A DNA stretch of 64,000 nucleotides from the IMG/VR virus record IMGVR_UViG_3300027861_000017, positions 1-64,000 of that record; one strand, written 5' to 3'. The stretch is from a virus. This document shows positions 12,642 through 33,984 of the stretch, one piece after another. Positions within the stretch are counted from its first letter, which is position 1. Each line of letters starts with the position of its first letter. The notes below the pieces were generated by a model. It saw nothing but the letters and a program-made list of their open reading frames with translations. It searched no databases and had not been told where the DNA came from. Made by a program: the position numbers and the translations under genes.

Positions 12642-12869
12642 TTATCCTTTATTTTGGTCTATGGCTATCCCTAAAATGAATAGCTCTAACCCGAATATAG
12701 AAAGCGGAAGGCCTATACCTCCACAAAGGAAATATAGGCCTACACACAAAATTACTATTCCTGAAAATGATATTATATCACCAGCATACTCACATAACTT
12801 CATATGTGTATATGAGATTGCTTTTTTAATAGATGACATAATTTTCTTAAAATAATTACTTGACTTCAT
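12642..12869 (-). CDS. Small membrane protein, 75 aa
   Basis: Residues 30-70 are strongly hydrophobic (IISFSGIVILCVGLYFLCGG, then IFGLELFILGIAI), predicting two membrane passes with a basic amphipathic N-terminus. The ATG overlaps the end of the sulfotransferase gene by 14 bases. Function unknown; two-pass small proteins at this place could be holin-like, but lysis genes are not recognised nearby. Confidence 0.65.
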   Translation of the reverse strand: MKSSNYFKKIMSSIKKAISYTHMKLCEYAGDIISFSGIVILCVGLYFLCGGIGLPLSIFGLELFILGIAIDQNKG

Positions 12870-13755
12870 ATCCCCATTTCCCCATCGTATCTATAAATTT
12901 CCCTCTTTCTTGTTTCTTAATCTTGTGCGTTATTAAATCGTGTTTAGAGATTTTAATAGAGTCAAAGTGTTTTATTGTCAATTCCGTTGGTTCGGAATCA
13001 TATTTAGCTTTCATGAACTGCATTATATCTAATTTATATTCTAAAAATCTTTCATAATTCATGCAGTATTTATGGTCTGGATCATGCTCCTCATAAGCAT
13101 CCATCAAAACCCGCCACACATGAGCACATCTTGTTATCTGATTGTATTTCTTTTTATCTAAATAGAAATCTTTTTCGAAAATAGAAAAATGTGGAGTCTC
13201 AAATCCTGGCCCACTCTGCATCAAATCTACAGCCTTGTCAAAATACTCATCAGTATACCAACCTCTAGCTAATGATGATTGTATTACATCACTACCATTC
13301 CTCACACAATGCATGATATGACAATTAGGAAATAACTCCATTAAGAATGGTAAATTAGTTTGGGCTTCATTTGTTTTAATAATGAAAACTGGCTTAAAAT
13401 CTAAAACCTGTTCTCTATTGGTTATCTTCGTATATTCACCTGAACTACATTCTCCAACTAACTCATTACCATACCAATAATTTCTGTAATAAGATTCATT
13501 ATCCTTTACAGCATTTATACTTCTCCATGTCATCTGTTGTGCAAAGTAATCTTCAAATATCATTCCCCTGATACCTTCCAGATCACAATCTTTATACATT
13601 GGAGCATATTTAAGTATAGCTGGCTCATATAGATAAAGCGTGTTAGTAAAAGACCCTAATATCTTTCCCATTAAAGATGTTCCGGATCTTCCTACACCAG
13701 TTATTATTAATACTCTCCCCCTGAAAATATCAGCATAATTTATTGCTGGTCGCAT
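12856..13755 (-). CDS. PAPS-dependent sulfotransferase family protein
   Basis: Start at 13755 after a GGGGG site. Residues 14-30 (RVLIITGVGRSGTSLMGKI) are the 5'-phosphosulfate-binding P-loop; IMHCVRNGSDVIQSSLARG in the middle is the 3'-phosphate-binding motif with its Arg and Ser. Length (299 aa) fits the sulfotransferase_3 type. Such enzymes move sulfate from PAPS to a sugar, lipid or protein. It lies at the portal-proximal end of the sugar-biosynthesis block, so a sulfated surface glycan is a reasonable but unproven target. Confidence 0.85.
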   Translation of the reverse strand: MRPAINYADIFRGRVLIITGVGRSGTSLMGKILGSFTNTLYLYEPAILKYAPMYKDCDLEGIRGMIFEDYFAQQMTWRSINAVKDNESYYRNYWYGNELVGECSSGEYTKITNREQVLDFKPVFIIKTNEAQTNLPFLMELFPNCHIMHCVRNGSDVIQSSLARGWYTDEYFDKAVDLMQSGPGFETPHFSIFEKDFYLDKKKYNQITRCAHVWRVLMDAYEEHDPDHKYCMNYERFLEYKLDIMQFMKAKYDSEPTELTIKHFDSIKISKHDLITHKIKKQERGKFIDTMGKWGYEVK

Positions 13756-13829
13756 ATTTACCCCCATAAATAGCTAGAGCCGCCTATTTCTAGACGACTT
13801 CGTTACTGTTTCTACACATGGCAGATCAG

Positions 13830-14141
13830 CTAATCCGTATTAATTCTGTATTTTCTTGCTATTTCGTTTATTATTCTTGCATCATAAAATTTATCTTTTA
13901 ACATTGCTTCAACGTTTTCCAATGCTTCAAAATAAAACTTATAATCAATTTCATCTTCATATAAATATGGAGCAGAATTTGGCCCAACTAACTGGCATAT
14001 AAAATGATCTCTTAAATTGTCTTGACATATAAAAACACCCCAATCGTGGGAGCATTCTTCTATATATCCAAGGCCCTTTTCGCCATAACAATCAATGTAA
14101 TCTACCACAGTGTCTTGAAAAATCTCTAAATTATCTAGCAT
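13830..14141 (-). CDS. Unrecognised protein, paralogue of the gene at 25541, 103 aa
   Basis: It shares with the protein at 25541 the pattern G-x-SA-x-x-Y-x(4)-DY-x-x-Y-x-E-x-x-EN followed by M-x-KD-x-F-x-D-x-R-x-I-x-E. Both have a beta-rich N-terminal half and a helical end. GGGGAAGG precedes the ATG. The pair brackets the core of the sugar pathway. No known family. Confidence 0.65.
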   Translation of the reverse strand: MLDNLEIFQDTVVDYIDCYGEKGLGYIEECSHDWGVFICQDNLRDHFICQLVGPNSAPYLYEDEIDYKFYFEALENVEAMLKDKFYDARIINEIARKYRINTD

Positions 14142-14206
14142 CATCCTTCCCCATCACATTCATCACAACAATATTCGACATTATCATTATCTAAATATTG
14201 AGCCAT
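14141..14206 (-). CDS. Possible 21-residue peptide gene with CC-x-x-C end
   Basis: ATG at 14206 opens a 21-codon frame ending NVEYCCDECDGEG; its TGA overlaps the ATG of the next gene (TGATG). The overlap pattern matches the rest of the operon, but no ribosome site precedes the ATG. A TTG further upstream could extend it by about eleven residues. It may simply be spacer. Confidence 0.25.
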   Translation of the reverse strand: MAQYLDNDNVEYCCDECDGEG

Positions 14207-14229
14207 AGCTTTACTAGCTGTAATCGCAA

Positions 14230-14454: not shown

Positions 14455-14471
14455 GTCTTATTTCCTTATAG

Positions 14472-15329
14472 TTAAATTTTCTCTGGTTTAGGCACATCTA
14501 CCTTCTTTACTTTCTTCTTGGCTTTTTTCTTCACCTTGCGTTTCAGCTCCTTTCCTGTAAAGGCTACCAACTCCTCAAAAAGTAAACAGCTAGGACAAAC
14601 CCCATTATCCAATATAGGCTTCTTAAAGTATCCATCACACACACCACACGGCGCATACGTTTGGCTTGTCTTCTTGTCGAAGCATCTTACGTTCTGAAGC
14701 CCACCCTTGTGTCTTACATCAATATCATTGTAGTAATAAACCCCAGAGAAACCATACCCAGAATAATCATCAAGACCACCGTTGCTATGAAAGTTCGTAT
14801 CATTAGTCCATTCCCCCGCTTCCTCATTGATTAATGTAACATGGCCATAACGGTCCATAAATATAAGTTTAGACATATTGTCTTTGCAATATCTTTCAAG
14901 GCAGTCTATTATAGCTGGTATTTCTAGGAAATCTTTTGGTAATTTGTTTAATATTTCATCATTGAACTTCTGAGTATCTGATCTTCCATCATCCACATTA
15001 TTCTTAAAGTAAGGACTGAATTCGAAGAAATTACCGTTGTGTACAAAGGCGAGATGTTTATTTACAAAGAAGGGGTGGCAAGTGTCGTCGTTCTTGTCAC
15101 TTGTTGAGGCAGTTCTAAAGTGTAGAACCACATTAGAAAGTGGGTAGTGCTTTACTGTTATATCGTATTTTCTATGGAATTCTTTATAATCCATGTACCC
15201 CTTTTTTACATGGAGGAGTCCATGCTCTGCGAACATGAATCCACATCCATCGGGGTTGGATTTGTGAAAATTCTTTAAATCTTTTGGGTTTATTCCACTT
15301 TCTGCTGGTTTATAAATTGCTATGCACAT
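14472..15329 (-). CDS. Class II glutamine-amidotransferase-like protein with zinc ribbon
   Basis: Cys2 follows the initiator (MCIAIYKP), the nucleophile position of class II amidotransferases. Other conserved features are DGCGFMF, VVLHFRTAS (substrate-carboxylate Arg) and FVHNGNFFEF. Residues about 220-250 hold a CxxC-x(13)-CPSC ribbon, and the tail is Lys-rich (KKKAKKKVKK). No synthase domain is attached. It could provide ammonia to the PP-loop amidotransferase encoded at 15940, but proteins like this occur in many phages without sugar pathways. Confidence 0.75.
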   Translation of the reverse strand: MCIAIYKPAESGINPKDLKNFHKSNPDGCGFMFAEHGLLHVKKGYMDYKEFHRKYDITVKHYPLSNVVLHFRTASTSDKNDDTCHPFFVNKHLAFVHNGNFFEFSPYFKNNVDDGRSDTQKFNDEILNKLPKDFLEIPAIIDCLERYCKDNMSKLIFMDRYGHVTLINEEAGEWTNDTNFHSNGGLDDYSGYGFSGVYYYNDIDVRHKGGLQNVRCFDKKTSQTYAPCGVCDGYFKKPILDNGVCPSCLLFEELVAFTGKELKRKVKKKAKKKVKKVDVPKPEKI

Positions 15330-15720: not shown

Positions 15721-15721
15721 A

Positions 15722-15940
15722 TCAGTGTATATCATCATGTCTACAACCGTTAAATTTAAAATTCTTATCTAAATAAATAAGAGACCTAAATTCTCCAGTA
15801 TAAAAATGGTCTATTAATTCTCCATTAATTACTGAATAAAGATTAGAGTTAGAGCCTATTACAAACCCAGTAAATGCAAAACCACTACAATCGTTAGCTT
15901 GATATATTAAGATATCTTCTTTGAATATTTGAATTATCAC
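15722..15940 (-). CDS. Unrecognised small protein, 72 aa
   Basis: A GTG at 15940 is preferred because GAGGG lies about 9 bases upstream and the GTG overlaps the amidotransferase stop (TAGTG); an ATG at 15949 is in frame. Beta-rich sequence with a CSGFAFTGFVIGSNSN stretch. No family recognised. Confidence 0.5.
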   Translation of the reverse strand: MIIQIFKEDILIYQANDCSGFAFTGFVIGSNSNLYSVINGELIDHFYTGEFRSLIYLDKNFKFNGCRHDDIH

Positions 15941-17013
15941 TACACACATTCCCTCTTTAGCATATAAGGTCTTTCGGGCTTATCAGTCTTCACTAAAACG
16001 TCTTTGTTCACAAACTTACCTATCACATCCCAAAACTCTCCTTCATCCATTCCAAAGTAATCCAGATAATAATCGAGATATTCAACAGGGAATTGCCCAT
16101 CAAGCAAATTAACCAATCCGACACCTTCTTCACGACTTAACCTCCCTCTCCTGACTTCTATACTCACATCTGATGTACATCTACCAAATCCAAACTTGAC
16201 AAACATTAAATAAGCATGCAGATCCTGCATTACATCATCTAACTGGCTATAATTAGTGAATGTTCCTATACTGCCACTAACCATCATCTGCATATTACAT
16301 TTGGTCTTAGCTATTATAGCATGATGCTCTGGGTCCCAATCTTGAAACTTAGACCAGTGAGTAGCATATAGTTTGTCTAGATCTTTCTGTTTGGGTAAAG
16401 TCCAGAGATCCCCGTATCTCTTAGGGTCAAATCCGGAGTAGTAATATTTGATAAGATATTCTCTGTCTATCTTCTCATTAGCATCCTGAGCACCACCATA
16501 CTCTTTCTCCCCTTCTTCTCCGTACATTATAAAGGGTATATTATATTCGACAGCCTTATTGAGTATGGTAGTTGATATCCCAGTAACGAATGGTAGCTTA
16601 GGCCTCCCCTGTTCTATGAAACCCATCTTTGCTATTTCTCTATATTTATCAACCGGTATATCTATAGTCTGGTGATCAAATCCGGAGTCTATGAAATTCT
16701 TCAGGTTTTGGTATCCAAGCCAAGTTTGAATCTGAGGTAACACTGTTATGCACAGGGGGTTCATGTCTAGTTCGTGTTTCATCATCCACGCAACGTAGGA
16801 ACCATCTTTACCACCTGAGCATGGCACTATTGCATCGTACTCTCCCTTACCCCTAAATCTATCACACAGTGCTTCTAGTTTATCCCATCGCTCATTCCAG
16901 TCTATTGTGGTCTGTTTTTCGTCGTGCCATGTACACGCACTACAAACACCATCATCATTAAATGTTAAGCGTGGTCTAGTGTCTGGTGTGACACATCTTG
17001 TACAATACTTCAT
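15940..17013 (-). CDS. N-acetyl sugar amidotransferase (WbpG/PseA/PtmG-like PP-loop enzyme)
   Basis: The N-terminus has the zinc motif YCTRCVTPDTRP plus GVCSAC (Cys 4, 7, 24, 27). Residues about 62-75 are the PP-loop (AIVPCSGGKDGSY) that adenylates the substrate. Length 357 fits WbpG/PseA proteins, which convert an acetamido to an acetamidino group on nonulosonic acids or aminosugars. These normally take ammonia from HisH-like partners, which are not seen here. In this cluster it would act late, making an amidino-legionaminic-type sugar. The substrate is inferred from neighbours. Confidence 0.85.
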   Translation of the reverse strand: MKYCTRCVTPDTRPRLTFNDDGVCSACTWHDEKQTTIDWNERWDKLEALCDRFRGKGEYDAIVPCSGGKDGSYVAWMMKHELDMNPLCITVLPQIQTWLGYQNLKNFIDSGFDHQTIDIPVDKYREIAKMGFIEQGRPKLPFVTGISTTILNKAVEYNIPFIMYGEEGEKEYGGAQDANEKIDREYLIKYYYSGFDPKRYGDLWTLPKQKDLDKLYATHWSKFQDWDPEHHAIIAKTKCNMQMMVSGSIGTFTNYSQLDDVMQDLHAYLMFVKFGFGRCTSDVSIEVRRGRLSREEGVGLVNLLDGQFPVEYLDYYLDYFGMDEGEFWDVIGKFVNKDVLVKTDKPERPYMLKRECV

Positions 17014-17213: not shown

Positions 17214-17527
17214 GTTATCCTTGGGCTTCCTAATGTACAATGGCATATACCTGATGCGTGTGGGTTGTTTTTGGGATTATTGGAGCAGGTAGCACAAGCG
17301 TCAGTTTCCCAACAATCACTGTGGCTTAAACCATCTAACCATTCCAATCCCTCATAAAACACATCGTCATATCTTGGCTCAGTTATCGGCTTGACTCTTT
17401 TTCTACGCTTATTAACTGAGTCTTTTATCTTTTTTCTTATATCGGGAATACCTGCACCAATATCAGATCCTTCTTCTAGTTCTAATATATAATCTATAGC
17501 ATCATCTTTGATATTAAGTTTATACAT
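17210..17527 (-). CDS. Unrecognised protein with Cys-rich end, 105 aa
   Basis: The N-terminal half is charged and helical; a KKIKDSVNKRRKRVK segment is strongly basic. The C-terminal third has four to five Cys (DCWETDACATCSNNP, CHCTLG), likely a metal site. Overlaps the stop of the synthase gene by one base. No known family. Confidence 0.6.
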   Translation of the reverse strand: MYKLNIKDDAIDYILELEEGSDIGAGIPDIRKKIKDSVNKRRKRVKPITEPRYDDVFYEGLEWLDGLSHSDCWETDACATCSNNPKNNPHASGICHCTLGSPRIT

Positions 17528-18324
17528 TAATTCGACTCCATAACAGACAATATCTTATCCTTTACTTTTAGCTCTGCTTCTGTGGGTTCCTTTGCTGTGT
17601 TCTTTAGAGCCTTTTCCACATTCCTTATCATTGTGACCATTATCTTAAATCGATCTGGTTCTATGCTGGCTTTATGATCTGGTCCATCAGCATATCTATC
17701 CATTGTGATATGCTTCTCTATTATCCTGGCACCCCTAGCTACTGCTGCTATTGGTATTTCTATGCCGGAGGTGTGGTCGGAGAGGCCATCAAAATCACAA
17801 TAGTCATCTAAGAAGTTCGGTAATCTAACATTATCGTATGGCGTGGGATATTCAGTATTACACTCTAATAAAAAAAATGTTCCGGCTTGAAAATATCCAT
17901 AACCCATTACACGGTATTCAAAATCCAAAATATCAGATTGTAGTTGCATGCCAGTAGACGCTATTATTATTTCTGGATTCTTATCAAATATAGCCTTTGA
18001 ATATTCCTCATTATTTAATTTCCCACTAGGTATCTTCCAAGTAGTCATCCCCAACTCAGCCAGAAAATCAATGCTCCAGAAATCAAAAGGAGTGCAAAAC
18101 CAATCTAGCCCCAATCCTTCAGCATAAGACTTTAAGTTTATAAGGTCGTTATCGGATAATCTTAGATGCTCTATATCTGGAAAATGCCCCTCTCCCCATG
18201 CTTGAAACTTAACAGCATCAGCACCGGCACAATATGATTCATAAATAAGCTCTACAGCTTCTTCGTAAAGGCCGTTATGATTAACTCCGCACTCAGATAT
18301 TATATAGACTTTCGAGTTATCCAA
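17527..18324 (-). CDS. Nonulosonic acid synthase (NeuB/LegI/PseI family) lacking SAF domain
   Basis: A TIM-barrel synthase condensing PEP with a 2-acetamido mannose-type sugar. Visible signatures are IISECGVNHNG, GADAVKFQAW, WFCTPFDFWSIDFL, TWKIPSGKL, ECNTEYPTPYDNVRLPN, GLSDHTSGIEIP and IEKHITMD. A TTG start at 18324 follows GGAGGGG. At 265 residues it ends after the barrel; usual NeuB-type enzymes are about 335-350 and carry a C-terminal SAF (antifreeze-like) domain that supplies an active-site Arg to the partner subunit. Either a SAF-less variant or a protein needing another subunit. Confidence 0.88.
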   Translation of the reverse strand: MDNSKVYIISECGVNHNGLYEEAVELIYESYCAGADAVKFQAWGEGHFPDIEHLRLSDNDLINLKSYAEGLGLDWFCTPFDFWSIDFLAELGMTTWKIPSGKLNNEEYSKAIFDKNPEIIIASTGMQLQSDILDFEYRVMGYGYFQAGTFFLLECNTEYPTPYDNVRLPNFLDDYCDFDGLSDHTSGIEIPIAAVARGARIIEKHITMDRYADGPDHKASIEPDRFKIMVTMIRNVEKALKNTAKEPTEAELKVKDKILSVMESN

Positions 18325-19142
18325 AAGTTCCCCTCCTTCTTGGTATACATCTTATCAGCCTCTGGAACTAAAAGCTCCTTAATCTTTTCCCCAGGTCTCA
18401 AACCTACATACTTTATTTTACAATCTGGATGTATCTCTTTAGCCACATCCACTATCTTGCGCTCTTCCATTACAGGAACAAATATCTCTCCACCCTTCAT
18501 AATGTTGATGACTTCATAGATTCTCTCTGCCACTTCGTGAGGATGTATGAAATATCTAACCATATCTTTGTGTGTGACTGGGAATGTGTTAGTTCCATCA
18601 GCTTTGAGCTTGTTGAAATACTCAACCACTGATCCCCTAGATCCCCATATATTACCAAACCTTATTGATGCAAACTTTGTTTGGGAGGAGCCGCAATATT
18701 TATGTGCGTTAATAAAAAGCTCATCAGCAACTAGTTTAGAAGCTCCATAGAGGCTAGAAGGATCTACAGCCTTGTCTGTACTTATATGCAGGACTCTCTT
18801 AACATGCCTTTCTATGGCAGCATGCATTATATTCTCGGAACCAGTTATATTGGTGTGAATACCTTCTAGGGGTTCTCCCTCTAGTGTATCTATCTGCTTC
18901 AATGCAGCAGCATGAATAACTATATCAACATTCCTAAACGCCATATGCAGTCTATCACGACTTCGTATGTCACCTAAAAAATATCTTATCTTATCAATAC
19001 CCTTATAATCGTTCTTCATAAGGTATTGATTATATTCATTATTATTAAATACTATTATTCGGTCTACTTCTGGAGCCGATAAAAGTCTGTCTACTACATA
19101 TCTACCAACAGTACCGTTCCCACCCGTTACTAATACTTTCAT
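18300..19142 (-). CDS. UDP-N-acetylglucosamine 4,6-dehydratase (PseB/LegB/FlaA1-like SDR)
   Basis: The N-terminal VLVTGGNGTVGRYVV is the NAD(P)-binding loop; HAAALKQID and ISTDKAVDPSSLYGASK hold the catalytic Asp-Lys and YxxxK residues; SIRFGNIWGSRGSV and YVGLRPGEKIKELL are CapD/PseB-type signatures. At 280 residues it is a short soluble dehydratase. It would make the 4-keto-6-deoxy sugar that starts nonulosonic acid synthesis. It overlaps the synthase gene by 25 bases, so the two are translated together. Inverting or retaining type cannot be decided by eye. Confidence 0.9.
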   Translation of the reverse strand: MKVLVTGGNGTVGRYVVDRLLSAPEVDRIIVFNNNEYNQYLMKNDYKGIDKIRYFLGDIRSRDRLHMAFRNVDIVIHAAALKQIDTLEGEPLEGIHTNITGSENIMHAAIERHVKRVLHISTDKAVDPSSLYGASKLVADELFINAHKYCGSSQTKFASIRFGNIWGSRGSVVEYFNKLKADGTNTFPVTHKDMVRYFIHPHEVAERIYEVINIMKGGEIFVPVMEERKIVDVAKEIHPDCKIKYVGLRPGEKIKELLVPEADKMYTKKEGNFWITRKSI

Positions 19143-20114: not shown

Positions 20115-20142
20115 GACACAAATATGTGTATCTTTTTGTGTC
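20115..20142 (-). terminator. Perfect 8-bp hairpin at the end of the aminotransferase gene
   Basis: On the RNA strand GACACAAA (20142-20135) pairs with TTTGTGTC (20122-20115), with a 12-base loop, starting in the stop codon of the aminotransferase gene. Only a weak AT tail follows, so it may be a pause, processing or partial termination signal. Confidence 0.4.
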
Positions 20143-21199
20143 AAAGAATCCCCTTTAATATCTTACATACCTTCATTATATCCTTCTCTTCATTTAATGT
20201 AGAAGAAGGGAGGCATGCCCCGTTATTGTATAGCTCTATTCCAACCTTAAAATTAGGTTCGTTGAACTCATCTTCGCAATACAGATCCATCAATGCCAAT
20301 GGTGAGAACACCTTCCTAAAAGGAATCCCCTGAGACATCAACACTATATGTAAATTTGATTCGTGAGTGGCTGCTGTAAACCAGTAGTTAGGAGTGTATT
20401 CGGGAGAAGTTTCCTGAAAATCAAGCTTCGAGTCAAGTTCGTTCCTGTATATCTCATGTATTTTGCGTTTCTTGTTTATAAATTCATGCATGCGCTCTAA
20501 TTGTGATAAGCCTAGAGCTGCTTGCATACCGTTCATTTTATAGTTGTATCCACAGCTCTCAAAATCACCAAACTCACTACGCCCTACGTTTACTATTTCC
20601 CTAGCCCATTTCATGTCTCTATATTTACTAGTAATCAAACCACCGCTACCGGTAGTCATTATCTTATTACCATTGAAACTATAGCATACATAATCTGCCA
20701 TCTCAGGGAGCATGTTGCCCCACATATCTTTAGACCCCAAGCTTTCGCATGAATCTGAAATCCAAATCAATTCGTGCTCAGTAACAAATTTATGCAAATC
20801 CCAACATGGCATGCCGTAAAGATCAACAGACATTATAGCCTTTGTCTTATCAGTTAGTGCATTTTTTGCACAAGTTGGATCTATACACCACAACAAAGGG
20901 TCTACATCAACAAAAACCGGTGTAGCACCTACATATTTAATAGCGTTTGCAGTGGCTATAAACGTCGTGGCTGGGAGTATTACCTCATCACCTCTTCCTA
21001 TACCGGCTGCTAGTAAAGCTACGTGTAGTGCTGATGTACCTGAGTTGGTGGCTATTGTTTCATCTACACCTAAATACTTGGCGCACTCAACTTCGAAATT
21101 AGAAACCATATCGCTTCTAGAAGATATATCCCCTTTACACATTAACCTTTCTACATTCTTAATATCTATAGGATCTATATTGGAATCATCTAGAAACAT
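20141..21199 (-). CDS. PLP-dependent sugar aminotransferase (DegT/DnrJ/EryC1; LegC/PseC-like)
   Basis: Family signatures in order: TNSGTSALHVALLAAGIGRGD, VILPATTFIATANAI, PVFVDVDP, WISDSCESLGS, and SFNGNKIMTTGSGGLI with the PLP-binding Lys. Length 352 is normal. It would transfer an amino group from glutamate to C4 of the 4-keto-6-deoxy-HexNAc nucleotide made by the dehydratase at 18300. The gene is closely followed by a hairpin and a decayed gene, then the dehydratase. ATG at 21199 follows GGGGGGAG. Confidence 0.92.
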   Translation of the reverse strand: MFLDDSNIDPIDIKNVERLMCKGDISSRSDMVSNFEVECAKYLGVDETIATNSGTSALHVALLAAGIGRGDEVILPATTFIATANAIKYVGATPVFVDVDPLLWCIDPTCAKNALTDKTKAIMSVDLYGMPCWDLHKFVTEHELIWISDSCESLGSKDMWGNMLPEMADYVCYSFNGNKIMTTGSGGLITSKYRDMKWAREIVNVGRSEFGDFESCGYNYKMNGMQAALGLSQLERMHEFINKKRKIHEIYRNELDSKLDFQETSPEYTPNYWFTAATHESNLHIVLMSQGIPFRKVFSPLALMDLYCEDEFNEPNFKVGIELYNNGACLPSSTLNEEKDIMKVCKILKGIL

Positions 21200-21209
21200 C
21201 ACTCCCCCC

Positions 21210-22933: not shown

Positions 22934-23184
22934 TTTCATCCCCCTTTTGTAATAAAAAATTGGGCTGGCTTTTGTAACCAAGCCGGAGTTACCAGCTTCC
23001 GGCTATGAAAAATATTCTTTAATATTAGGTGGAATATAACTAATTTTAACAGTTATTTTATAATATAACCAAATTAAATTAAAATGAAATTAAGCATCAT
23101 TTAAATTAATGTAGTTATTTCAAACATTTATATTTTACAATTTATTTTTTTAAAAAATAAAATGAACGTTTAAAAGTGATATTT
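22934..23184 (-). promoter_or_regulatory. AT-rich leader with hairpin before the sugar operon
   Basis: About 250 bases without a gene, very AT-rich. A hairpin AGCCGGA-loop-TCCGGCT (about 23007-22981) lies 50 bases before the SDR start. Upstream, TTGGTT, 17 bases, TTAAAA could be a weak promoter, but the base composition makes chance matches likely. The place fits a control region for the genes 22933 to 17527. No other gene is seen here. Confidence 0.35.
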
Positions 23185-25278: not shown

Positions 25279-25475
25279 TATAGTTTCCTTTGTATATCTA
25301 TACCTTCTAAAGATTCTATAAGGGCAAATAGTGGTCCAAGCATTATAGATATCAAGAGACCCAAAAACAATAGACTTAAACATATAATTTTGCCCCTATA
25401 CCATCTTATTGAATATAATAATATAGTCAAAGATATTCCAGATATAGGCCATAATAATAAAAGCTCAGTTGACAT
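25278..25475 (-). CDS. Small two-pass membrane protein, 65 aa
   Basis: Two hydrophobic stretches (ELLLLWPISGISLTILLYS and IICLSLLFLGLLISIMLGP) flank a short basic loop (RWYRGK). Coupled to the acyltransferase by a TAATG overlap. Start follows GGGGG. Function unknown. Confidence 0.65.
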   Translation of the reverse strand: MSTELLLLWPISGISLTILLYSIRWYRGKIICLSLLFLGLLISIMLGPLFALIESLEGIDIQRKL

Positions 25476-25540: not shown

Positions 25541-25882
25541 CTATTTGTTAAAGGGACAACTTTCTGGTCCAGCATTTACTCCTGGTTCTTCTCCATGTTT
25601 TGAAAGTAACTCTTCTATAACTCTCTCGTCAAAGAAGCCATCTTTAATCATAAACAATGAATTCTCAAAAAGTTCATTATATACTAAATAATCTGAGTCA
25701 TTAGCATAAAAATCTGGTTCAGCAGATGGACCTTTGAGACAACTTAAATATCTGTCTCTATCACTATCACACACTATTGTAATACCTATATCATATTCTA
25801 CTCCAACTAAATGCCCTATTATTTCCGTTCCCTTATAGTTTATAAATCTTATTGTTCTACCTTCAAACTTCTCGTAATCCAT
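25541..25882 (-). CDS. Paralogue of the gene at 13830, 113 aa
   Basis: Shares with the protein at 13830 a central GPSAEPDFYANDSDYLVYNE-type segment and the end M-x-KD-x-F-x-D-x-R-x-I-x-E. The C-terminal 15 residues are an extension lacking in the other copy. No known domain; the two copies lie on either side of the sugar genes. Confidence 0.65.
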   Translation of the reverse strand: MDYEKFEGRTIRFINYKGTEIIGHLVGVEYDIGITIVCDSDRDRYLSCLKGPSAEPDFYANDSDYLVYNELFENSLFMIKDGFFDERVIEELLSKHGEEPGVNAGPESCPFNK

Positions 25883-26500: not shown

Positions 26501-26872
26501 TTATTCTCTCTCCCACTCGTGTGTGTGATTAGGCTTATCTTTACCCTCAAGAGCTTTCTTAACTTTCTTCTTGAATCTAACCGCCTTTCTTAATATTAAA
26601 ACAACACAAAGCCATATTGAAGCTACAATAACTAGGGGCCATATTAACATTGATATTAGAACAATAAACGCAAAAAGAACTGGGTAAAGAATTAATTCTG
26701 CCCCGCCCAGATCACCTATAAAATCTAATTTACGTATAAAATTCGGTATAAAGAGGCTTAACTTTTCATCGTTTATTGATTGTAAAGATAAATAAATAGC
26801 GTTAACGCTAAAAAATATCAACAATATTGCTCCACACACTATGCCAGTAACTTGCATTCCTATCTCGTACAT
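26501..26872 (-). CDS. Membrane protein with PNHTHEWE tail, 123 aa
   Basis: Three hydrophobic segments (residues about 8-28, 60-80 and 82-105) precede a basic tail, RFKKKVKKALEGK, that ends PNHTHEWERE. The neighbouring protein at 26872 has the same end on a different membrane part. His and Glu/Trp in the tail might bind metal. Start at 26872 overlaps the upstream stop (TAATG). Confidence 0.65.
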   Translation of the reverse strand: MYEIGMQVTGIVCGAILLIFFSVNAIYLSLQSINDEKLSLFIPNFIRKLDFIGDLGGAELILYPVLFAFIVLISMLIWPLVIVASIWLCVVLILRKAVRFKKKVKKALEGKDKPNHTHEWERE

Positions 26873-27231
26873 TATTTCTCCTCCCATTCGTGTGTGTGAT
26901 TAGGATCTTCTTTACCACTAAGAGTCTTGTTAACCTTCTTACGTAGTCTTACAAAGCCACGTAGAGAGTACAAGCTTAGATATCCAATGCCACACAATAT
27001 AGCTGGCAACCATAAAAAGCCTACAACGTAACCAATGGGAAATAAAAGCACACAAACTAGCGGCATAGGCATATCGTGGAATCCACTAGGCAAGCTGGGC
27101 CACCATTTAAAATCACTATCTTCAACCCAAGCCTTAGCCCATATAACTGTATTAGTAATACCAAGAAAAATACCTGTTACTACAAATATATCCATTACAA
27201 AAAAAGCAATACTTAAATATAAATCATTCAT
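26872..27231 (-). CDS. Membrane protein with PNHTHEWE tail, 119 aa
   Basis: Hydrophobic segments at residues about 5-28 and 57-92, then a basic helix (RLRKKVNKTLSGK) and the end PNHTHEWEEK. The tail DNA shares a 16-base exact match with the neighbouring gene at 26501, while the membrane parts differ. AAGGAGGGG precedes the ATG. Function unknown. Confidence 0.65.
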   Translation of the reverse strand: MNDLYLSIAFFVMDIFVVTGIFLGITNTVIWAKAWVEDSDFKWWPSLPSGFHDMPMPLVCVLLFPIGYVVGFLWLPAILCGIGYLSLYSLRGFVRLRKKVNKTLSGKEDPNHTHEWEEK

Positions 27232-27273
27232 CTCTTTACCCCTCCTTATCTAATATACAACTTTCAAACATAT

Positions 27274-27987
27274 TTATTCACCCTTATCTAATATGTATCG
27301 TTTGTGTAACATCTCTGCTATTTGAAAGTCTACCTCGCTATCTATATCGAAAGCTTGCCAGTCTTCCATGTATAAAGGATAGTTCTTACTATTTAGCACA
27401 TTGTTTATACCTTTGTCAAGCCATTTCTTATTGTATACGTATATACTTGCATTCATTTCATGTATTGCAGGAGCGTCCTGTCTCCTGAGATAATCACCTT
27501 CACACGCAGTCTTAGATTGACCAAATCTGTCAGTTGTTACCATGTTGAAGTAGGGGTTTTTCCTGGCAGGGGATACAGAGAATACCACATCGAGTGTGGA
27601 TCTATTGTTCATCATCTCGTGCATACCAACCGCCTCATGGATGTTGATCATAGTTCTTAGTGGTGCTGATACATCTAGGTCTATTACGGTGTCGTATTCC
27701 CCCCCATACTCGGCTTCAGCAGCAGACACAGCCTCACGTATAGCTTCTATCTTAGGAGTGTCGTCTTGGGCTAGTTTAGGGTCTCTATCGTGGTGATATA
27801 CTCCGTAGGCGTTGCAGAAATGTTTCATACCATCGTAATCAGTTGATACCACTATATCAGCATCCCCATAGATGATAGCTTGAAGGAATGTCCAGTTTAT
27901 TAAAGGTTGGCCATTCATGTCTTTCATGTTTTTGTCAGGGAGTCCTTTAGACCCCTTACGTGCTAGTATTGTTATCAACTTATTCAC
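27274..27987 (-). CDS. CMP-nonulosonic acid synthetase (NeuA/LegF/PtmB-like)
   Basis: The N-terminal ITILARKGSKGLPDKNMKDM is the CTP-binding signature of NeuA-type cytidylyltransferases; DIVVSTDYDGMKHF, DTVIDLDVSAPLRTM, and the final DWQAFDIDSEVDFQIAEML also fit the family. Length 237. It would activate the nonulosonic acid with CTP. A GTG start at 27987 follows GGAGGAG. Being 9 kb upstream of the synthase, the pathway is dispersed among unrelated small genes. Confidence 0.9.
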   Translation of the reverse strand: MNKLITILARKGSKGLPDKNMKDMNGQPLINWTFLQAIIYGDADIVVSTDYDGMKHFCNAYGVYHHDRDPKLAQDDTPKIEAIREAVSAAEAEYGGEYDTVIDLDVSAPLRTMINIHEAVGMHEMMNNRSTLDVVFSVSPARKNPYFNMVTTDRFGQSKTACEGDYLRRQDAPAIHEMNASIYVYNKKWLDKGINNVLNSKNYPLYMEDWQAFDIDSEVDFQIAEMLHKRYILDKGE

Positions 27988-27991
27988 TATA

Positions 27992-28228
27992 TTACTCCTC
28001 CCAAAATCTACTAAATTTCATTACTGATTTGTCACAGTCAGGGTACGTATCTAATATATATTTCTTCCAAGCTTCAAAGATTCTATCTCTATATTTATCT
28101 CCAGATAAATTCTTGATTATATGATAACATTCTTCAAGAGCTTCATGAGCGTCACCTAAATTATCTATTAAATCTATACCGATAAAATTATTATTGTGAT
28201 CGGTTATATGTCTATAAGATCCTGCCAT
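27992..28228 (-). CDS. Unrecognised protein, 78 aa
   Basis: A mostly helical soluble protein (DAHEALEECYHIIKNLSGD). TAATG overlap with the gene upstream. No motif. Confidence 0.6.
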   Translation of the reverse strand: MAGSYRHITDHNNNFIGIDLIDNLGDAHEALEECYHIIKNLSGDKYRDRIFEAWKKYILDTYPDCDKSVMKFSRFWEE

Positions 28229-28560
28229 TATGCGTCCTCGTTTTCTGGTAGGTTGGCTATCTGTAGTGCTATTTCGGATCTAAGTTTCATATCTCCCTCT
28301 GCGCCAGCTATCATGTATAAATCGTATAAGCCGGTATCATCTTGATGGTCACAACGTCCTCCTGGCCATATTACTGGGCATGCGCTACATCCACCATAAA
28401 TACCTGATGCGTATTGGCAACAGAAACAATCAGCATTAACTTCGTCTATAGTTCCACCGTGGAACTTCCACCTAAGCCAATTCCATTTATGTTTCTCTGG
28501 GTTCTTTGCAAGCCATGTCCATAGCTCTCTGTGCATTTTTATTGCGTATTGTTTATTCAT
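28228..28560 (-). CDS. Cys-rich protein of unknown function, 110 aa
   Basis: A Trp-rich helix at the N-terminus (WTWLAKNPEKHKWNWLRW) is followed by a metal-site-like cluster, DCFCCQYASGIYGGCSACPVIW and GGRCDH. The arrangement looks like a small zinc or iron-binding domain. It is repeated loosely in other Cys-rich proteins of this window. No known function. Confidence 0.65.
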   Translation of the reverse strand: MNKQYAIKMHRELWTWLAKNPEKHKWNWLRWKFHGGTIDEVNADCFCCQYASGIYGGCSACPVIWPGGRCDHQDDTGLYDLYMIAGAEGDMKLRSEIALQIANLPENEDA

Positions 28561-28598
28561 TATTCTTCTCCCAGTCTATATTATATATTCAACATGTA

Positions 28599-28859
28599 TC
28601 ACTTTAAAATATCTAGTATTTTATTAAGAAACGATTTCCTTTCAGGTGCTTTCTTATTGTGTGTACGCTTTCTCAACATTGTAAAATCTTCACATTGCCC
28701 TGATTTATTTTTATCTCCAGGGTTTAAACAACATCTTGAGATGATACCAAGATGTGTCACTGTCTCATATATATTATCGGGATGCAGACAATGTTCTGAG
28801 TCTCTTCCGCCATATCCATAATCTTTATAATATTCACAATCTGGACAAAAATTAGCCAC
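28599..28859 (-). CDS. Cys4-type small protein, 86 aa
   Basis: GTG start at 28859 follows GGGAGGA. Residues 5-60 carry CPDCEYYKDYGYGG, HCLHPDN, SRCCLNPGDK and QCEDF, the recurring small phage zinc-binding layout C-x-x-C-x-Y with a later C-x-x-H-x-x-N and a final C-x-x-(F/Y). The C-terminus is basic. Family members recur at 29235, 30144 and 30692. Confidence 0.6.
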   Translation of the reverse strand: MANFCPDCEYYKDYGYGGRDSEHCLHPDNIYETVTHLGIISRCCLNPGDKNKSGQCEDFTMLRKRTHNKKAPERKSFLNKILDILK

Positions 28860-29039
28860 CTATATTTCCTCCCACTCTATATCTATTATATTCTCTAATA
28901 GTTTCTGTTTTATAACCCAGTCCAATGATACTGGGATCTTGTAACTACCAAAATCTTCATGTAATTCATTATCATATATTACAAGATGTTTGTCGAATGT
29001 TATGTTGTTTATCTTTATAGATTTCTTATTCATCTTCAT
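28860..29039 (-). CDS. Unrecognised protein, 59 aa
   Basis: The start overlaps the upstream coding end by 14 bases; ATG at 29039 is preferred over a TTG three bases earlier. Small beta-rich protein with an acidic Trp end (DIEWEEI) whose codons form the ribosome site of the next gene. No function. Confidence 0.5.
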   Translation of the reverse strand: MKMNKKSIKINNITFDKHLVIYDNELHEDFGSYKIPVSLDWVIKQKLLENIIDIEWEEI

Positions 29040-29238
29040 CAAGCTTGTACCCCTCCTGTTTTATATAAAAACCACCGGTGCCATTTGATTTTTCTAACCA
29101 TTCATCGAGGCATTTATGTAGAAACTTTTTATATTCTAAGTCATTCATATGTTTGGAATCACAATCAGGTGGGCATATGTCGGAGTGTATACCTATTTTA
29201 CCATCTCTATCATACATAGATTCAGCGTGGACTTTCAT
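29026..29238 (-). CDS. Unrecognised protein, 70 aa
   Basis: Contains ICPPDCDSKH and a charged helix (EYKKFLHKCLDEWLEK). Its ribosome site GAGGAGAGAG lies in the final codons of the gene upstream. No family recognised. Confidence 0.55.
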   Translation of the reverse strand: MKVHAESMYDRDGKIGIHSDICPPDCDSKHMNDLEYKKFLHKCLDEWLEKSNGTGGFYIKQEGYKLDEDE

Positions 29239-29744
29239 TTTTTATCTCTCTCCTCTACCGCTTCATCTAGCTCTTCTAGAATTTCGGGGATGGGTCTGGT
29301 TGTTGTTTTAGGCGTATTTTCTTGTATTGGTTCACCATTTAATGTGGTTCTAGCTAGATTGTTTTTTATATATAGTTTATCTTTTATATATCCGAACACA
29401 CTGAAACCTAAAATACCTACACATGTAATTAGATAATAAGGTGATAAAATGGTGCAACATAATACATATACAAACAAACACAATAAAGCAATTAAACACC
29501 ACCTGATATCCCAATGTACCGAGTATCCTAAAAATAAACTTAATATCCTAGGCATATATTTATAATTTTTACAATTATTATTATGATTAATATGATCACA
29601 AGTTGAAATGGAATATAAATTCCATTTAGAATAATTACTGGCTGACCTTCTCATTTTGTTTTCTAGATTGGAAGGATGATAGCAATGACCCCAACCAGAA
29701 AGAAGTTCTTTATATTGACATGTGTCGCAATATACTTTAGTCAT
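29235..29744 (-). CDS. Zinc-knuckle membrane protein with shared LEELDEAVEER C-terminus
   Basis: Three parts: residues 1-55 hold a Cys knuckle (VYCDTCQYKELLSGWGHCYH, then STCDHINHNNNCKNY); residues 65-115 contain two membrane segments (WCLIALLCLFVYVLCC; YLITCVGILGFSVFGY); the end is RPIPEILEELDEAVEERDKK. ATG at 29744 follows GAGAGGGG inside the previous gene. The C-terminal helix recurs on many neighbours, while the N-terminal zinc domain is shared with 30144 and 30692. Function unknown. Confidence 0.7.
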   Translation of the reverse strand: MTKVYCDTCQYKELLSGWGHCYHPSNLENKMRRSASNYSKWNLYSISTCDHINHNNNCKNYKYMPRILSLFLGYSVHWDIRWCLIALLCLFVYVLCCTILSPYYLITCVGILGFSVFGYIKDKLYIKNNLARTTLNGEPIQENTPKTTTRPIPEILEELDEAVEERDKK

Positions 29745-30144
29745 TGTTACCCCTCTCTTCCACAGCCTCATCTAGCTCTTCCAAGATCTCAGGGATGGGG
29801 CGTTTGGTTTTATGTATACCCCTTAATCTATCATATATGTCATCGTTTGTCTCAGGCATACTATCATATAATTCCTTAAGATTATTGCTAAATGTATTTG
29901 TGGTTTTCTTTGGTGGAAAACTATTTTTGTGGACTTGGATTGTGAATTTATATATTTTTAGCATTAACCTAGGTGTTTTACGTAAACATGAATATGTAAA
30001 TACAAATGGCAGAAAGATCCAAAATAAAATATAACAATATGTTATTGGGCCTTCTGGATAGAAATCATCAGCATCCATTACCTCAACAGAAACCAAAGCC
30101 CATGCAAATAAATATAACACCAATGAAAATGCTAAAGTCTCCAT
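29737..30144 (-). CDS. Membrane protein with shared LEELDEAVEER C-terminus, 135 aa
   Basis: Starts with a hydrophobic helix (TLAFSLVLYLFAWALVS) and a second one (CYILFWIFLPFVFTY), then a Lys-rich cytosolic stretch, and ends RPIPEILEELDEAVEERGNND, nearly identical to the tail of the protein at 29235. It lacks the zinc domain. The last codons form the ribosome site for the next gene. Confidence 0.7.
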   Translation of the reverse strand: METLAFSLVLYLFAWALVSVEVMDADDFYPEGPITYCYILFWIFLPFVFTYSCLRKTPRLMLKIYKFTIQVHKNSFPPKKTTNTFSNNLKELYDSMPETNDDIYDRLRGIHKTKRPIPEILEELDEAVEERGNND

Positions 30145-30692
30145 TACAGCTCCCTCCTATCTACTATACTCTCTACCCTATCTAGAAGAATAGGTAGTTC
30201 CTCTTCGGCCTTCGGGGAGGAGGGTGGGTTCATGTGAGAGGCTATCTCATCCCATATCGGGTCTTCGGTGGTAAACGGAGTGTTGTAGAGGTTGATCTTA
30301 TTGCAATATTTTTTGTAATTATTAAGATAATATTTAATAGTGAATATTATTCCTACCACCCAAATTATAAATGGTATAGGGGAAGAAGATTCGCAGGATA
30401 TTGCAACCATAGCTGCAAATGTTATCATAAAAGCAAGGATATTAAATACAACAAATGTATTGTCAACAATGTATGAACAACCATCACCCAATAATGAAGA
30501 TAATATATTATACCCCTTGTAATTAGGGCAATCGTTATTGCAGTTTAATTTAGTTCCATGGATACTAACCTTATTATATTGCACCCCAACTGAAGTTTTT
30601 CGTATCTTTACATTGCTATAATGACAGCATAGGCTACCACTGTATTCAGATTCATCGTAGTAGTAGCATTTATTGCAATATACGTCAGTCAT
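30144..30692 (-). CDS. Zinc-knuckle membrane protein with shared C-terminal cassette, 182 aa
   Basis: N-terminal VYCNKCYYYD, LCCHYSN and NCNNDCPNY form the Cys knuckle; two membrane helices follow (VVFNILAFMITFAAMVAI; PFIIWVVGIIFTIKYY). The tail reads FTTEDPIWDEIASHM, then ILLDRVESIVDRREL. The TTEDPIWDEIA module is shared with 30692 and 31218. Confidence 0.7.
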   Translation of the reverse strand: MTDVYCNKCYYYDESEYSGSLCCHYSNVKIRKTSVGVQYNKVSIHGTKLNCNNDCPNYKGYNILSSLLGDGCSYIVDNTFVVFNILAFMITFAAMVAISCESSSPIPFIIWVVGIIFTIKYYLNNYKKYCNKINLYNTPFTTEDPIWDEIASHMNPPSSPKAEEELPILLDRVESIVDRREL

Positions 30693-31225
30693 TACTCTTG
30701 TCTCCTATCTATCTCAATGTCTAGATCATCTAACATTTGAGGTATTTTATCTTTTTTGGGTTGCGGGTCGCTCATGTGTTGGGCTATATCATCCCAGATT
30801 GGGTCTTCAGTGGTGAAAAATTCAGTACTGTGTTGTCTTATTTTTTTATGATATTTAGCCTCAGAATTCATTAGACTAAAGAAAACAGATACTACAATTC
30901 CTATCCAAGTTAGGAGGGGTATAAAAGAGCCCAATCCACAAGTCATAGAAACAAAAAGAATTGATCCTGCAACCAGTAGAACGCTAAGAACCCCTATCAT
31001 GAAGTCTTGAGCTATAAAAGCTGCACCATCACCAAAAAAGGCTGAAAATATTGTACCCTTCTTATAGAGATCGCAACTATTATATCTATTTAATCCCTCA
31101 TATTCAATATCCAATGGCGTATATTCTATATCGATAGGTGTTTCTGTGATAACCACGTTTTTAAAATGTCTACACTCAGAATTATCACTTGAGTAATGAC
31201 AATCTTTACAATATACCTTAGTCAT
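30692..31225 (-). CDS. Zinc-knuckle membrane protein with shared C-terminal cassette, 177 aa
   Basis: Same plan as the protein at 30144: VYCKDCHYSSDNSECRHFKN and SCDLY knuckle, two membrane helices (MIGVLSVLLVAGSILFV; PLLTWIGIVVSVFFSL), then TTEDPIWDDIAQHMSDPQ and MLDDLDIEIDRRQE. Its tail DNA has a 27-base exact repeat in the next gene upstream. ATG at 31225 follows AGGAGAG. Confidence 0.7.
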   Translation of the reverse strand: MTKVYCKDCHYSSDNSECRHFKNVVITETPIDIEYTPLDIEYEGLNRYNSCDLYKKGTIFSAFFGDGAAFIAQDFMIGVLSVLLVAGSILFVSMTCGLGSFIPLLTWIGIVVSVFFSLMNSEAKYHKKIRQHSTEFFTTEDPIWDDIAQHMSDPQPKKDKIPQMLDDLDIEIDRRQE

Positions 31226-31670
31226 TGTTATCTCTCCTATCTATCTCTGTATCTATCTTATCTAATAGATCAGGTATGATGTTTTTGGGTTGTTGCGGGT
31301 CGCTCATGTGTTGGGCTATTTCATCCCATATTGAGTCTTTGGTGGTCCAAAGTTTTGTCTTATCATCATGCATACTCCTTAGTTTAAATGCTATTGCTAT
31401 CCATATAGCAGCAAAAACTAGAATAGGCCATACAACTGAAATTACTGCTAGCAATATTAAATATATTAATGGTATTACACCTATAAAAAAGGCACAACAA
31501 TCACTGTCATTCTTATATCTAGCAAAACCCAAAGCTGTTAGGTAGTAAAGATCTTCTCTCTTAACCCACTTATTGGTCATGTAAATTGAATTCAATATCC
31601 AATGCGATAATAAAACTAATGGGATTGACCATAATATAAGTTTCATAATACTACAATATATGTCTAACAT
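31218..31670 (-). CDS. Membrane protein with shared C-terminal cassette, 150 aa
   Basis: Three hydrophobic segments (LILWSIPLVLLSHWIL, FFIGVIPLIYLILLAVISVVW, ILVFAAIWIAIAF) replace the zinc domain, but the tail is TTKDSIWDEIAQHMSDPQ followed by LLDKIDTEIDRRDNND, as in 30144 and 30692. It therefore shows that the tail moves between unrelated N-terminal parts. Confidence 0.7.
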   Translation of the reverse strand: MLDIYCSIMKLILWSIPLVLLSHWILNSIYMTNKWVKREDLYYLTALGFARYKNDSDCCAFFIGVIPLIYLILLAVISVVWPILVFAAIWIAIAFKLRSMHDDKTKLWTTKDSIWDEIAQHMSDPQQPKNIIPDLLDKIDTEIDRRDNND

Positions 31671-32223: not shown

Positions 32224-32224
32224 G

Positions 32225-32458: not shown

Positions 32459-32459
32459 G

Positions 32460-32765
32460 TTAATTCTCCCTTCCTTCTAGTTTAAGGTTAATGTTATCCA
32501 AATCATCCTCTATGGAGTTATTGGGGTTATCTTTGTTGTCGTTCTTAACTCTCTCATCTATTATTTCATGCATGGCATATTCTATTCCATTGCACAAATG
32601 CAATTCTGCGTATTTATAATCAGTTTCAGGATGAGTATGAAAATAAGGGCATTCATCATTGCAATAGCCACCCCAGTCAGGATTAAGGCAAGCTTGCCTC
32701 TTGAAATAACTGCCCCTTTTAAAATATAACCAGCCTCCTTCATCTATCTTACATCTATGTGGCAT
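32460..32765 (-). CDS. Cys-rich soluble protein with degenerate shared C-terminus, 101 aa
   Basis: Cys at RCKI, KRQACLNPDWGGYCNDECPYF suggest a knuckle. The chain ends IEDDLDNINLKLEGREN, a weaker match to the neighbouring tails (D-L-D-x-I, E-x-R). No membrane segment. Tight packing on both sides. Confidence 0.6.
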   Translation of the reverse strand: MPHRCKIDEGGWLYFKRGSYFKRQACLNPDWGGYCNDECPYFHTHPETDYKYAELHLCNGIEYAMHEIIDERVKNDNKDNPNNSIEDDLDNINLKLEGREN

Positions 32766-32766
32766 T

Positions 32767-33003
32767 CTATCCCCTCCCTTCTACCTTCTTATCTACTATA
32801 TCTAAAGCTTCTTGTATTGTCAAGTTGTCTATGTGGTTTTTTATAGCTTGTTTATTGGTTATGGATTTATATGGTGGACGTTTAGACATTTCACATTCTT
32901 TAATGTAAATATCTTCATTAATACAAATGTAAATTGTATGCATTATTGCATAACCAATCAATAAACCTTCTGCAAATATCAATAACATGTCTAACTTTGT
33001 CAT
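32767..33003 (-). CDS. Membrane protein with NLTIQEALDIVD tail, 78 aa
   Basis: ATG at 33003 follows GGTGGGGGA. One membrane helix (MLLIFAEGLLIGYAIMHTIYI), then a linker and the end HIDNLTIQEALDIVDKKVEGRG. The DNA for the tail contains a 34-base perfect repeat (32797-32830) shared with the gene at 33977. Confidence 0.65.
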   Translation of the reverse strand: MTKLDMLLIFAEGLLIGYAIMHTIYICINEDIYIKECEMSKRPPYKSITNKQAIKNHIDNLTIQEALDIVDKKVEGRG

Positions 33004-33200
33004 TCCCCCACCTTCTTCCACACAGTACAAAGAGGGAAGATCTTACCATCGCCACCGAACCCAGAACGCTCAAGCATCATACATACTATCCTGGCTTCAT
33101 GGAGTGTATCATGGTAATCCCTGGTTTCTGAGAATCCATATTCATCTTTAACATTTGAGTCTTCTGGCCATAATGCTATTGATATATATTCCTTAGTCAT
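33000..33200 (-). CDS. Unrecognised protein, 66 aa
   Basis: Compact soluble protein: SIALWPEDSNVKDEYGFSET, then an HEARIVCMMLERSGFGGDGKIFP segment resembling a small phage family in which a query of the form ARxVCxxLE-x-x-GFGG-x-x-x-x-FP recurs. ATGA overlap with the next gene. No function. Confidence 0.6.
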   Translation of the reverse strand: MTKEYISIALWPEDSNVKDEYGFSETRDYHDTLHEARIVCMMLERSGFGGDGKIFPLCTVWKKVGE

Positions 33201-33201
33201 A

Positions 33202-33984
33202 TTATTCCCCCACCTTCTCTACTATCTTTCTAAATAAAGGCTCTGCCTCAAAGATGTTATTCATCATACTAGGGTTGTCTATGTTTGTAAAGAAGTATTT
33301 TAATTGGTCTATGTATATTTGGTCTATCACTTTTATATGGGTGGTGATTCCGGCTACCCTCAATAATCTAAGCTCTTGTGAGGAGGCTAAATCTAGCTCT
33401 ACATGAGTTGAAGTAGAATCTTCATGGGTCAGTGTGTATTTGCCGTGTTTGTCGAAGGTGGAGCCATCTATGGATTGTATGGGGCCAAATAGGTATTGAG
33501 TGTAATCCAATTCGTGGGATAATTCAAAAAGGACGTGATCTAGTTCTCTTTGGGAGGGCCAATTGTTAGAATTGGTTTTACAGACAATTTCTCTGCGTGA
33601 TGTTTCTTTTCCTGTTAGATGGGATTTGAGGTGGGTTATTACGTGGTTAAATCTAAGACAATATCCTATGTAGGTGATAACGCCTTCATCTTTAACTAAT
33701 TTCAATAATATATCTAAGTTTTTATCACTGACATCAACCGGCTTCTCTATAAAAAGCCTCTTTATACCTCTTTCGATACAGTATATGGCTGCCTCGATGT
33801 GTTTGTCTGAGGGGTAGCATATAAATGCGGCATCGAAGTGGGATAAGTCCACATTACTGTTGCCTTTTATATCTAGCTCCTTGACATCGTATAAACGGTG
33901 GTCATAGTTCTTCTGGATTAAACTCCAGTGTTTATTACCTATGCTGCCAAGACCGAAAAACAATATTTGCAAACTGTCATCCAT
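33202..33984 (-). CDS. Gfo/Idh/MocA-type NAD(P)-dependent oxidoreductase
   Basis: The N-terminus ILFFGLGSIGNKHWSLI is a Rossmann loop of the GFO_IDH_MocA family; FICYPSDKHIEAAIYCIERGIKRLFIEKPVDVS contains the conserved EKP, and TYIGYCLRFNHVI the following N/F motif. At 260 residues the C-terminal domain is short. Gfo/Idh proteins (PtmF-type) accompany SDRs in bacterial legionaminic acid clusters, so it probably modifies the sugar or its precursor. The reaction is not determined. Confidence 0.85.
   Translation of the reverse strand: MDDSLQILFFGLGSIGNKHWSLIQKNYDHRLYDVKELDIKGNSNVDLSHFDAAFICYPSDKHIEAAIYCIERGIKRLFIEKPVDVSDKNLDILLKLVKDEGVITYIGYCLRFNHVITHLKSHLTGKETSRREIVCKTNSNNWPSQRELDHVLFELSHELDYTQYLFGPIQSIDGSTFDKHGKYTLTHEDSTSTHVELDLASSQELRLLRVAGITTHIKVIDQIYIDQLKYFFTNIDNPSMMNNIFEAEPLFRKIVEKVGE

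Follow-up and report, generated by a model that had tools for sequence, protein, structure and literature searches.

A Phage-Encoded Gene Cassette for a Predicted CMP-Nonulosonic Acid Pathway within the Head Operon

Analysis of a 64,000-base window of viral DNA (bases 1-64000 of the 91,135-base IMG/VR viral record IMGVR_UViG_3300027861_000017, a linear fragment) revealed a cassette of sugar biosynthesis genes whose predicted products would cover the whole route from UDP-GlcNAc to a CMP-activated nonulosonic acid (NulO). Such acids are regarded as cellular surface sugars, and bacteria use them on flagella, lipopolysaccharide (LPS), and capsule. At least nine further, distantly related IMG/VR contigs carry the same cassette, with proteins about 30-60% identical. 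The module is conserved and belongs to the phages; it is not a chimera, nor a bacterial locus gone astray. A complete phage-owned CMP-nonulosonate route in a head operon appears to be new and goes beyond the single neuB-like genes already known. The gene set, its intact active sites, conservation, gene order, and operon position lead us to a reading that we hold at about even chances: this module in a late head operon makes a CMP-activated legionaminic-type sugar, most likely to be put on virion proteins.

Enzymes of the cassette

Protein families were assigned by Pfam and NCBIfam profile searches, with curated NCBIfam cut-offs applied. The open reading frames (ORFs) named in an initial annotation of the window are all real, lying intact and co-oriented on the minus strand at the positions assigned to them, and its six-enzyme pathway was borne out by the profile searches, which leave every enzyme in NulO pathways. 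Of the NCBIfam matches, those of NeuC and the amidotransferase WbuX exceed their curated cut-offs; homology is also clear for NeuB, the dehydratase, the aminotransferase, and the cytidylyltransferase, whose scores remain under equivalog cut-offs.

The predicted UDP-GlcNAc 4,6-dehydratase (18300-19142; PF02719, Polysacc_synt_2, 1.6e-79) is nearest to the FlaA1/PseB type and not of LegB type: it scores 315 bits with the PseB model TIGR03589 (cut-off 408) versus 77 bits with the LegB model TIGR04180 (cut-off 475), and its nearest solved structure is FlaA1 (2GN4, 1.6e-66). For the LegC/PglE-like aminotransferase of the DegT family (20141-21202; Pfam, 8.6e-79), the top NCBIfam model is LegC (TIGR04181, 238 bits; cut-off 420), and it lies nearest to LegC, PglE, and perosamine synthase types. 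N-acetylation of the 4-amino group is the probable role of a LegH/NeuD-like hexapeptide acyltransferase (24841-25383; PF00132, 3e-9), which matches the NeuD model TIGR03570 below cut-off (6.7e-14). The hydrolyzing 2-epimerase NeuC/LegG (21210-22265; Epimerase_2, 3e-59) reaches 307 bits with TIGR03568 against a cut-off of 236, and its top solved match is 5XVS, a diacetylbacillosamine-type hydrolyzing epimerase of LegG type (alignment A8, 5e-102). The nonulosonic acid synthase NeuB/LegI (17527-18324, 265 aa; PF03102, 1.2e-52) scores 238 bits with TIGR03569 against a cut-off of 400, a score lowered by the lack of the SAF domain and of part of the N-terminal region. The NeuA/LegF/PtmB-type CMP-nonulosonate cytidylyltransferase (27274-27987; PF02348, CTP_transf_3, 5e-15) matches the CMP-NeuAc synthetase structures 6IFD and 1EYR (alignment A10).

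A WbpG/PseA-like amidotransferase, a PtmA-like short-chain dehydrogenase (SDR), a Gfo/Idh oxidoreductase, and a sulfotransferase had also been proposed as tailoring enzymes, and all four gave family matches. The first is an N-acetyl sugar amidotransferase of WbuX/PtmG/WbpG type (15940-17013; TIGR03573, 307 bits against a cut-off of 203), predicted to convert acetamido into acetamidino groups, which aligns with structure 8WEX (alignment A5, 1e-70). The SDR (22259-22981; PF13561, adh_short_C2, 7.7e-22) has orthologues in six cassette phages, and the PtmF-like Gfo/Idh/MocA oxidoreductase (33202-33984; PF01408, 1.1e-7) is the first cassette gene in six phages, where its orthologues form one clade. 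A sulfotransferase dependent on 3′-phosphoadenosine 5′-phosphosulfate (PAPS) is encoded by the final gene (12856-13767; PF13469, Sulfotransfer_3, 2.4e-11), and a class II glutamine amidotransferase with N-terminal cysteine, probably a further member of the set, lies beside WbuX at 14472-15329 (PF13230, 27.7 bits against a cut-off of 23). Alignment with bacterial enzymes shows invariant catalytic and cofactor residues in NeuB (K, S-x-H, E-x-H, and D-H), NeuC (GDR, H, HGG, and D), WbuX (SGGKD and the zinc-type cysteines C4/C7/C24/C27), the dehydratase (DK...Y, in all), and the DegT enzyme (the pyridoxal phosphate lysine).

Three of the enzymes are peculiar. As read from their C-terminal lengths, the ten phage NeuBs have no C-terminal SAF (antifreeze-like) domain: all end 20-54 residues past the GxDxxxS motif, compared with at least 80 residues in 82 of the 83 nearest bacterial NeuBs. 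In Neisseria NeuB, this domain covers the active site of the partner subunit. The top solved match of the phage NeuB profile, the 290-aa SAF-less sialic acid synthase 6NCS, also leaves no room for the domain, but it is a cellular protein, judging by its PDB record name only. SAF-less NeuB appears widespread among viral NeuBs generally, beyond the cassette lineage. Homologues of the class II glutaminase directly follow WbuX in three contigs (G3, G6, and G7) and lie one small ORF away in the window; the Met-Cys start and the H-x-RTA, NGN, and SD motifs are invariant. It probably supplies the ammonia with which WbuX would form acetamidino groups, although its family (phrog_25883) is a general one among phages. 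A predicted model of the sulfotransferase (pLDDT 77.6) has PAPS sulfotransferases as its fold matches, with protein-tyrosine sulfotransferase (TPST) first; TM-scores to TPST of only about 0.4 make the substrate class unreadable from the fold.

Recurrence, operon position, and ancestry

Cassette contigs were found by a NeuB scan of IMG/VR, followed by alignment-based scans and hidden Markov model mapping. The ten are the window (W), G1 (L004), G2 (L013), G3 (L014), G4 (L015), G6 (L092), G7 (L093), L027, L029, and L319. In the first relative, the 44 kb contig L004 (G001), the same gene order adjoins the terminase genes TerS/TerL, and NeuB, NeuC, and WbuX are 46-48% identical to those of the window. 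The order runs Gfo/Idh, cytidylyltransferase, acyltransferase, SDR, NeuC, DegT, dehydratase, NeuB, WbuX amidotransferase, and sulfotransferase. The full set is present in six of the ten (W, G1, G2, G3, which is 115 kb long, G4, and G6, where the SDR is displaced); the remaining four contigs end within the cassette, and WbuX precedes DegT in L027 and G7. ORFs common to all cassette phages are hallmark and cassette genes only. All ten have the sulfotransferase, and a viral scan with this protein returned cassette phages only. One further candidate, L094 (G8), was dropped, as its gene order differs, hallmark genes were not found, and it has two GT2-type genes.

Placement of the cassette between head genes, already noted in the initial annotation, was confirmed. 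In the window, its upstream border is the terminase large subunit TerL (39981-41672; PF20441/PF03354; phrog_9, 1e-159) and its downstream border a portal protein with a Mu F-like C-terminus (10557-12629; PF04860, 3e-97), beyond which lie a protease (7368-8678) and the major capsid protein (6038-7363), all on the minus strand. In eight of the ten contigs, the cassette lies ahead of the portal gene, with TerL upstream where the contig reaches so far (W, G2, G4, and G6); in G1 it lies just upstream of TerS/TerL, and in G3 also upstream, provided that the record is circularly permuted. The empty site is visible in cassette-free loci of portal relatives that show both genes, where TerL and portal are no more than 450 bp apart in 57 of 68 cases. 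In G6, the most compact version, TerS, TerL, 11 enzymes, and one small ORF overlap unbroken and end 123 bp before the portal gene; TerL and Gfo/Idh overlap by 4 bp in both G2 and G6. The cassette genes of the window are spaced apart by many small ORFs. A chimera or contamination by a bacterial polysaccharide locus was rejected, because the cassette recurs next to terminase or portal genes in nine further phage contigs, with its order mostly kept, and because of the operon overlaps.

Most cassette genes share a common phage ancestry. Quick domain trees were built for DegT, SDR, Gfo/Idh, dehydratase, NeuC, and NeuA, and NeuB was also given a careful mixture tree; because the bacterial comparison set (80 loci) was chosen by NeuB similarity, trees other than that of NeuB give indications only. 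Phage genes cluster together for DegT (8 of 8, support 96), SDR (6 of 6, 94), and Gfo/Idh (6 of 6, 93), as do nine phage dehydratases with one other viral row (99) and six phage NeuCs joined by two further viral rows (99). The phage NeuAs do not form one clade and are mixed with bacterial PtmB-type enzymes. In the mixture tree, the cassette NeuBs sit with other viral NeuBs in a clade of viral sequences only (100/99); strict monophyly of the cassette NeuBs, supported at 97 in the quick tree, is lost there, since other viral NeuBs nest inside. Sulfotransferase distances track portal distances (rho 0.74, p 0.0005, n=10), and NeuB distances track those of DegT, dehydratase, and sulfotransferase. 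The distances of WbuX follow neither NeuB nor portal, so this gene may have been exchanged. Selection is purifying: in the closest pair, L027 and L029, synonymous sites have reached or almost reached saturation (pS about 0.7-0.8), and NeuB, dehydratase, sulfotransferase, and portal proteins are still 61-79% identical.

NulO genes also occur in the head modules of phages with unrelated head types. A second phage lineage (L098, L099, L100, L101, L102, L139, and L150) has them in the interval from the major head protein gene to that of an SU10-type adaptor, with WbuX, NeuA and NeuB where the locus reaches, NeuC in some, and GT2 in some, besides GT-B-like candidates; a single-sequence structure prediction for one such candidate gave a pLDDT of 36 only. 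L087 (3213-8829) carries a different sugar cassette in the same TerL-portal slot, composed of NeuB with a SAF-sized tail, SDR, cytidylyltransferase, transketolase, and FkbM methyltransferase. NulO genes lie upstream of terminase-like genes, judged by eye, in L073 and L083.

Predicted product and its destination

The product is most likely an N-acetimidoyl legionaminic-type acid, perhaps sulfated, as predicted from the enzyme types. The initial annotation had argued for a legionaminic rather than a pseudaminic product; the NeuC, cytidylyltransferase, and aminotransferase types agree with this, and the FlaA1/PseB-type dehydratase complicates it. The pseudaminic synthase and aminotransferase models score lower (PseI 146 versus NeuB 238 bits; PseC 189 versus LegC 238 bits). 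The cytidylyltransferase carries the signature [VLI][IV]DLD.[TS].PLR (here DLDVSAPLR) found in Campylobacter jejuni PtmB and other Gfo/Idh-linked NeuA proteins, which canonical LLQPTSPLR cytidylyltransferases do not have; its LegF/PtmB assignment is by this signature test, with no PtmB/LegF model reported among the NCBIfam hits. A PtmE-type nucleotidyltransferase (PF00483) is absent and with it the GDP-GlcNAc branch, which makes UDP-GlcNAc the likely starting sugar.

What the enzymes do, which precise sugar results, when it is made, and how and to what it is transferred are inferred from these features. A mechanism is proposed in which the cassette is transcribed within the late packaging/head operon and host UDP-GlcNAc would undergo 4,6-dehydration, transamination, N-acylation, and hydrolyzing 2-epimerization by NeuC. 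SAF-less NeuB would condense the resulting sugar with phosphoenolpyruvate, and CMP activation would follow to give a 5,7-diamino nonulosonic acid of legionaminic type. WbuX, fed by the glutaminase, would turn an N-acetyl into an N-acetimidoyl group, the PtmA/PtmF-like oxidoreductases would trim the sugar, and the sulfotransferase would add sulfate to the sugar or its carrier. A host-encoded or unrecognized transferase could then move the sugar late in infection, most likely onto new virion proteins. Late action is argued from the head-operon position, and virion decoration is favored because, besides this position, independent phage types keep NulO genes inside head modules. Virion glycosylation, masking, and receptor change had been named as possible roles in the initial annotation. 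The cassette suggests that, late in infection, these phages produce a sugar coat or a disguise of their own.

Several points weigh against virion decoration by a legionaminic-type sugar. No glycosyltransferase was recognized with models for GT2 (PF00535), GT4 (PF00534 and PF13692), or Maf (PF01973) in the six best records (each a fragment or of uncertain completeness), and a Pfam scan of 41 unlabelled ORFs of G3 recovered none among the 25 families listed out of 31. A CST-I search, which lacked a positive control, likewise identified none. As no transferase was recognized, transfer to virions needs a host or unrecognized enzyme. The record that holds the window is incomplete, with the tail region missing, and the predicted product might, given the FlaA1/PseB-type dehydratase, have either configuration at C8.

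The lack of a recognized glycosyltransferase in the cassette phages also makes modification of the host surface by host enzymes the main rival, somewhat less probable than virion decoration. Host NulO transferases would here attach the sugar, amidinated and sulfated, to LPS, capsule, or flagella, either blocking superinfection or stopping progeny from sticking to debris, and a phage glycosyltransferase would be unneeded. However, the late head-operon position recurs in several phage lineages, and a host that already makes NulO would leave the phage no need of a de novo pathway, whose product would in turn be of no use in a host that has no NulO transferase. A bolder form of virion decoration, which we think rather unlikely, has widespread tailed phages coating their capsids with a self-made amidinated, sulfated nonulosonate through a transferase outside current families. 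The sugar might then be of L-glycero configuration at C8, since a FlaA1-type dehydratase feeds the LegC/LegG route, a combination not described in the literature that could be searched.

It is improbable that the NulO enzymes have been repurposed, with the activated sugar modifying phage DNA, a small molecule, or, through a TPST-like sulfotransferase, protein tyrosines. The unrecognized transferase and the protein-tyrosine sulfotransferases heading the fold matches would fit such a role, but CMP-activated sugars are the usual donors in glycosyl transfer, and the TM-score to TPST is low. A hijacked bacterial polysaccharide locus, as a chimeric contig or a recent unselected capture, has a negligible chance: the pathway families are bacterial in origin and the Gfo/Idh-NeuA-SDR neighborhood also occurs in bacterial Leg loci such as that of C. 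jejuni, but ten independent contigs have matching head genes, genes overlap TerL, SAF-less NeuB sits in a virus-only clade, and selection is purifying.

Known systems and neighboring genes

The closest known relative is the CMP-legionaminic pathway (leg/ptm) of C. jejuni/coli and Plesiomonas, with which the phage cassette shares a LegC-like aminotransferase, LegG/NeuC, a LegI/NeuB-like synthase, and the LegF/PtmB-type DLD signature. C. jejuni locus L244 (ptm/leg gene names after PMC4481668) likewise has PtmA-/PtmF-like oxidoreductases beside the cytidylyltransferase and a WbuX-family amidotransferase. Unlike leg/ptm, the cassette has a FlaA1/PseB-type dehydratase in place of LegB, no PtmE, a SAF-less NeuB, a class II glutaminase, a sulfotransferase, and a head-operon location. 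The 8-epilegionaminic route of Acinetobacter uses lga plus ela genes instead (PMC9676051). Phage-encoded NulO enzymes, including a cytidylyltransferase domain and an SDR, are known from epaA-epaB of Acinetobacter prophages (PMC12053666), but these are two genes of temperate prophages that alter a host-made sugar by epimerization, whereas the cassette would provide the whole route from UDP-GlcNAc. The integrase family PF00589 was not found in the window record or in five cassette relatives. Further neuB-like genes have been reported in viromes, cyanophage-like genomes, and Stenotrophomonas phage DLP4 (PMC3877843, PMC6469090), and Marine virus AG-345-L05 also has one; these earlier cases are single or few genes, in contrast to the complete route of the cassette. 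Among 50,697 deposited phage records, WbuX is absent, NeuC occurs in one Moritella contig only, and none combines NeuB, NeuC, and WbuX. No report of a full phage NulO pathway was found in a literature search whose coverage left subscription papers largely outside.

A full conserved route in phage head operons would mean that bacterial viruses make nonulosonic sugars themselves, and would help explain the frequent neuB-like genes of viromes. Virion glycosylation, superinfection exclusion, and receptor masking would become open to direct testing, and enzymology would gain a compact 11-gene SAF-less pathway.

Other genes of the window lie in or near the cassette. An RtcB RNA ligase gene (23185-24264; Pfam, 1.5e-68) is inside the cassette region, unrelated to it and not in other cassettes, and seven paralogous small ORFs, several with hydrophobic stretches and with a common C-terminal motif, lie between cassette genes at 26501-31670. 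Proteins of about 110 aa with an LxGPSA motif form a five-member family scattered in the record (13830-14144 and 25541-25882 in the window; also L003, 2001-3061). Upstream of the cassette is a radical SAM protein gene (34729-35598); radical SAM-SPASM genes also occur near NulO genes in other phage lineages. In G4, the terminase large subunit is split by an intein-like insertion of about 400 aa (L345, 1435-4401). The window also contains a tRNA-Leu (taa) gene at 37764-37846 and two HNH/endonuclease VII-like genes that are related to each other, the first (9543-10346) lying between those for portal and protease and the second at 42238-43416.

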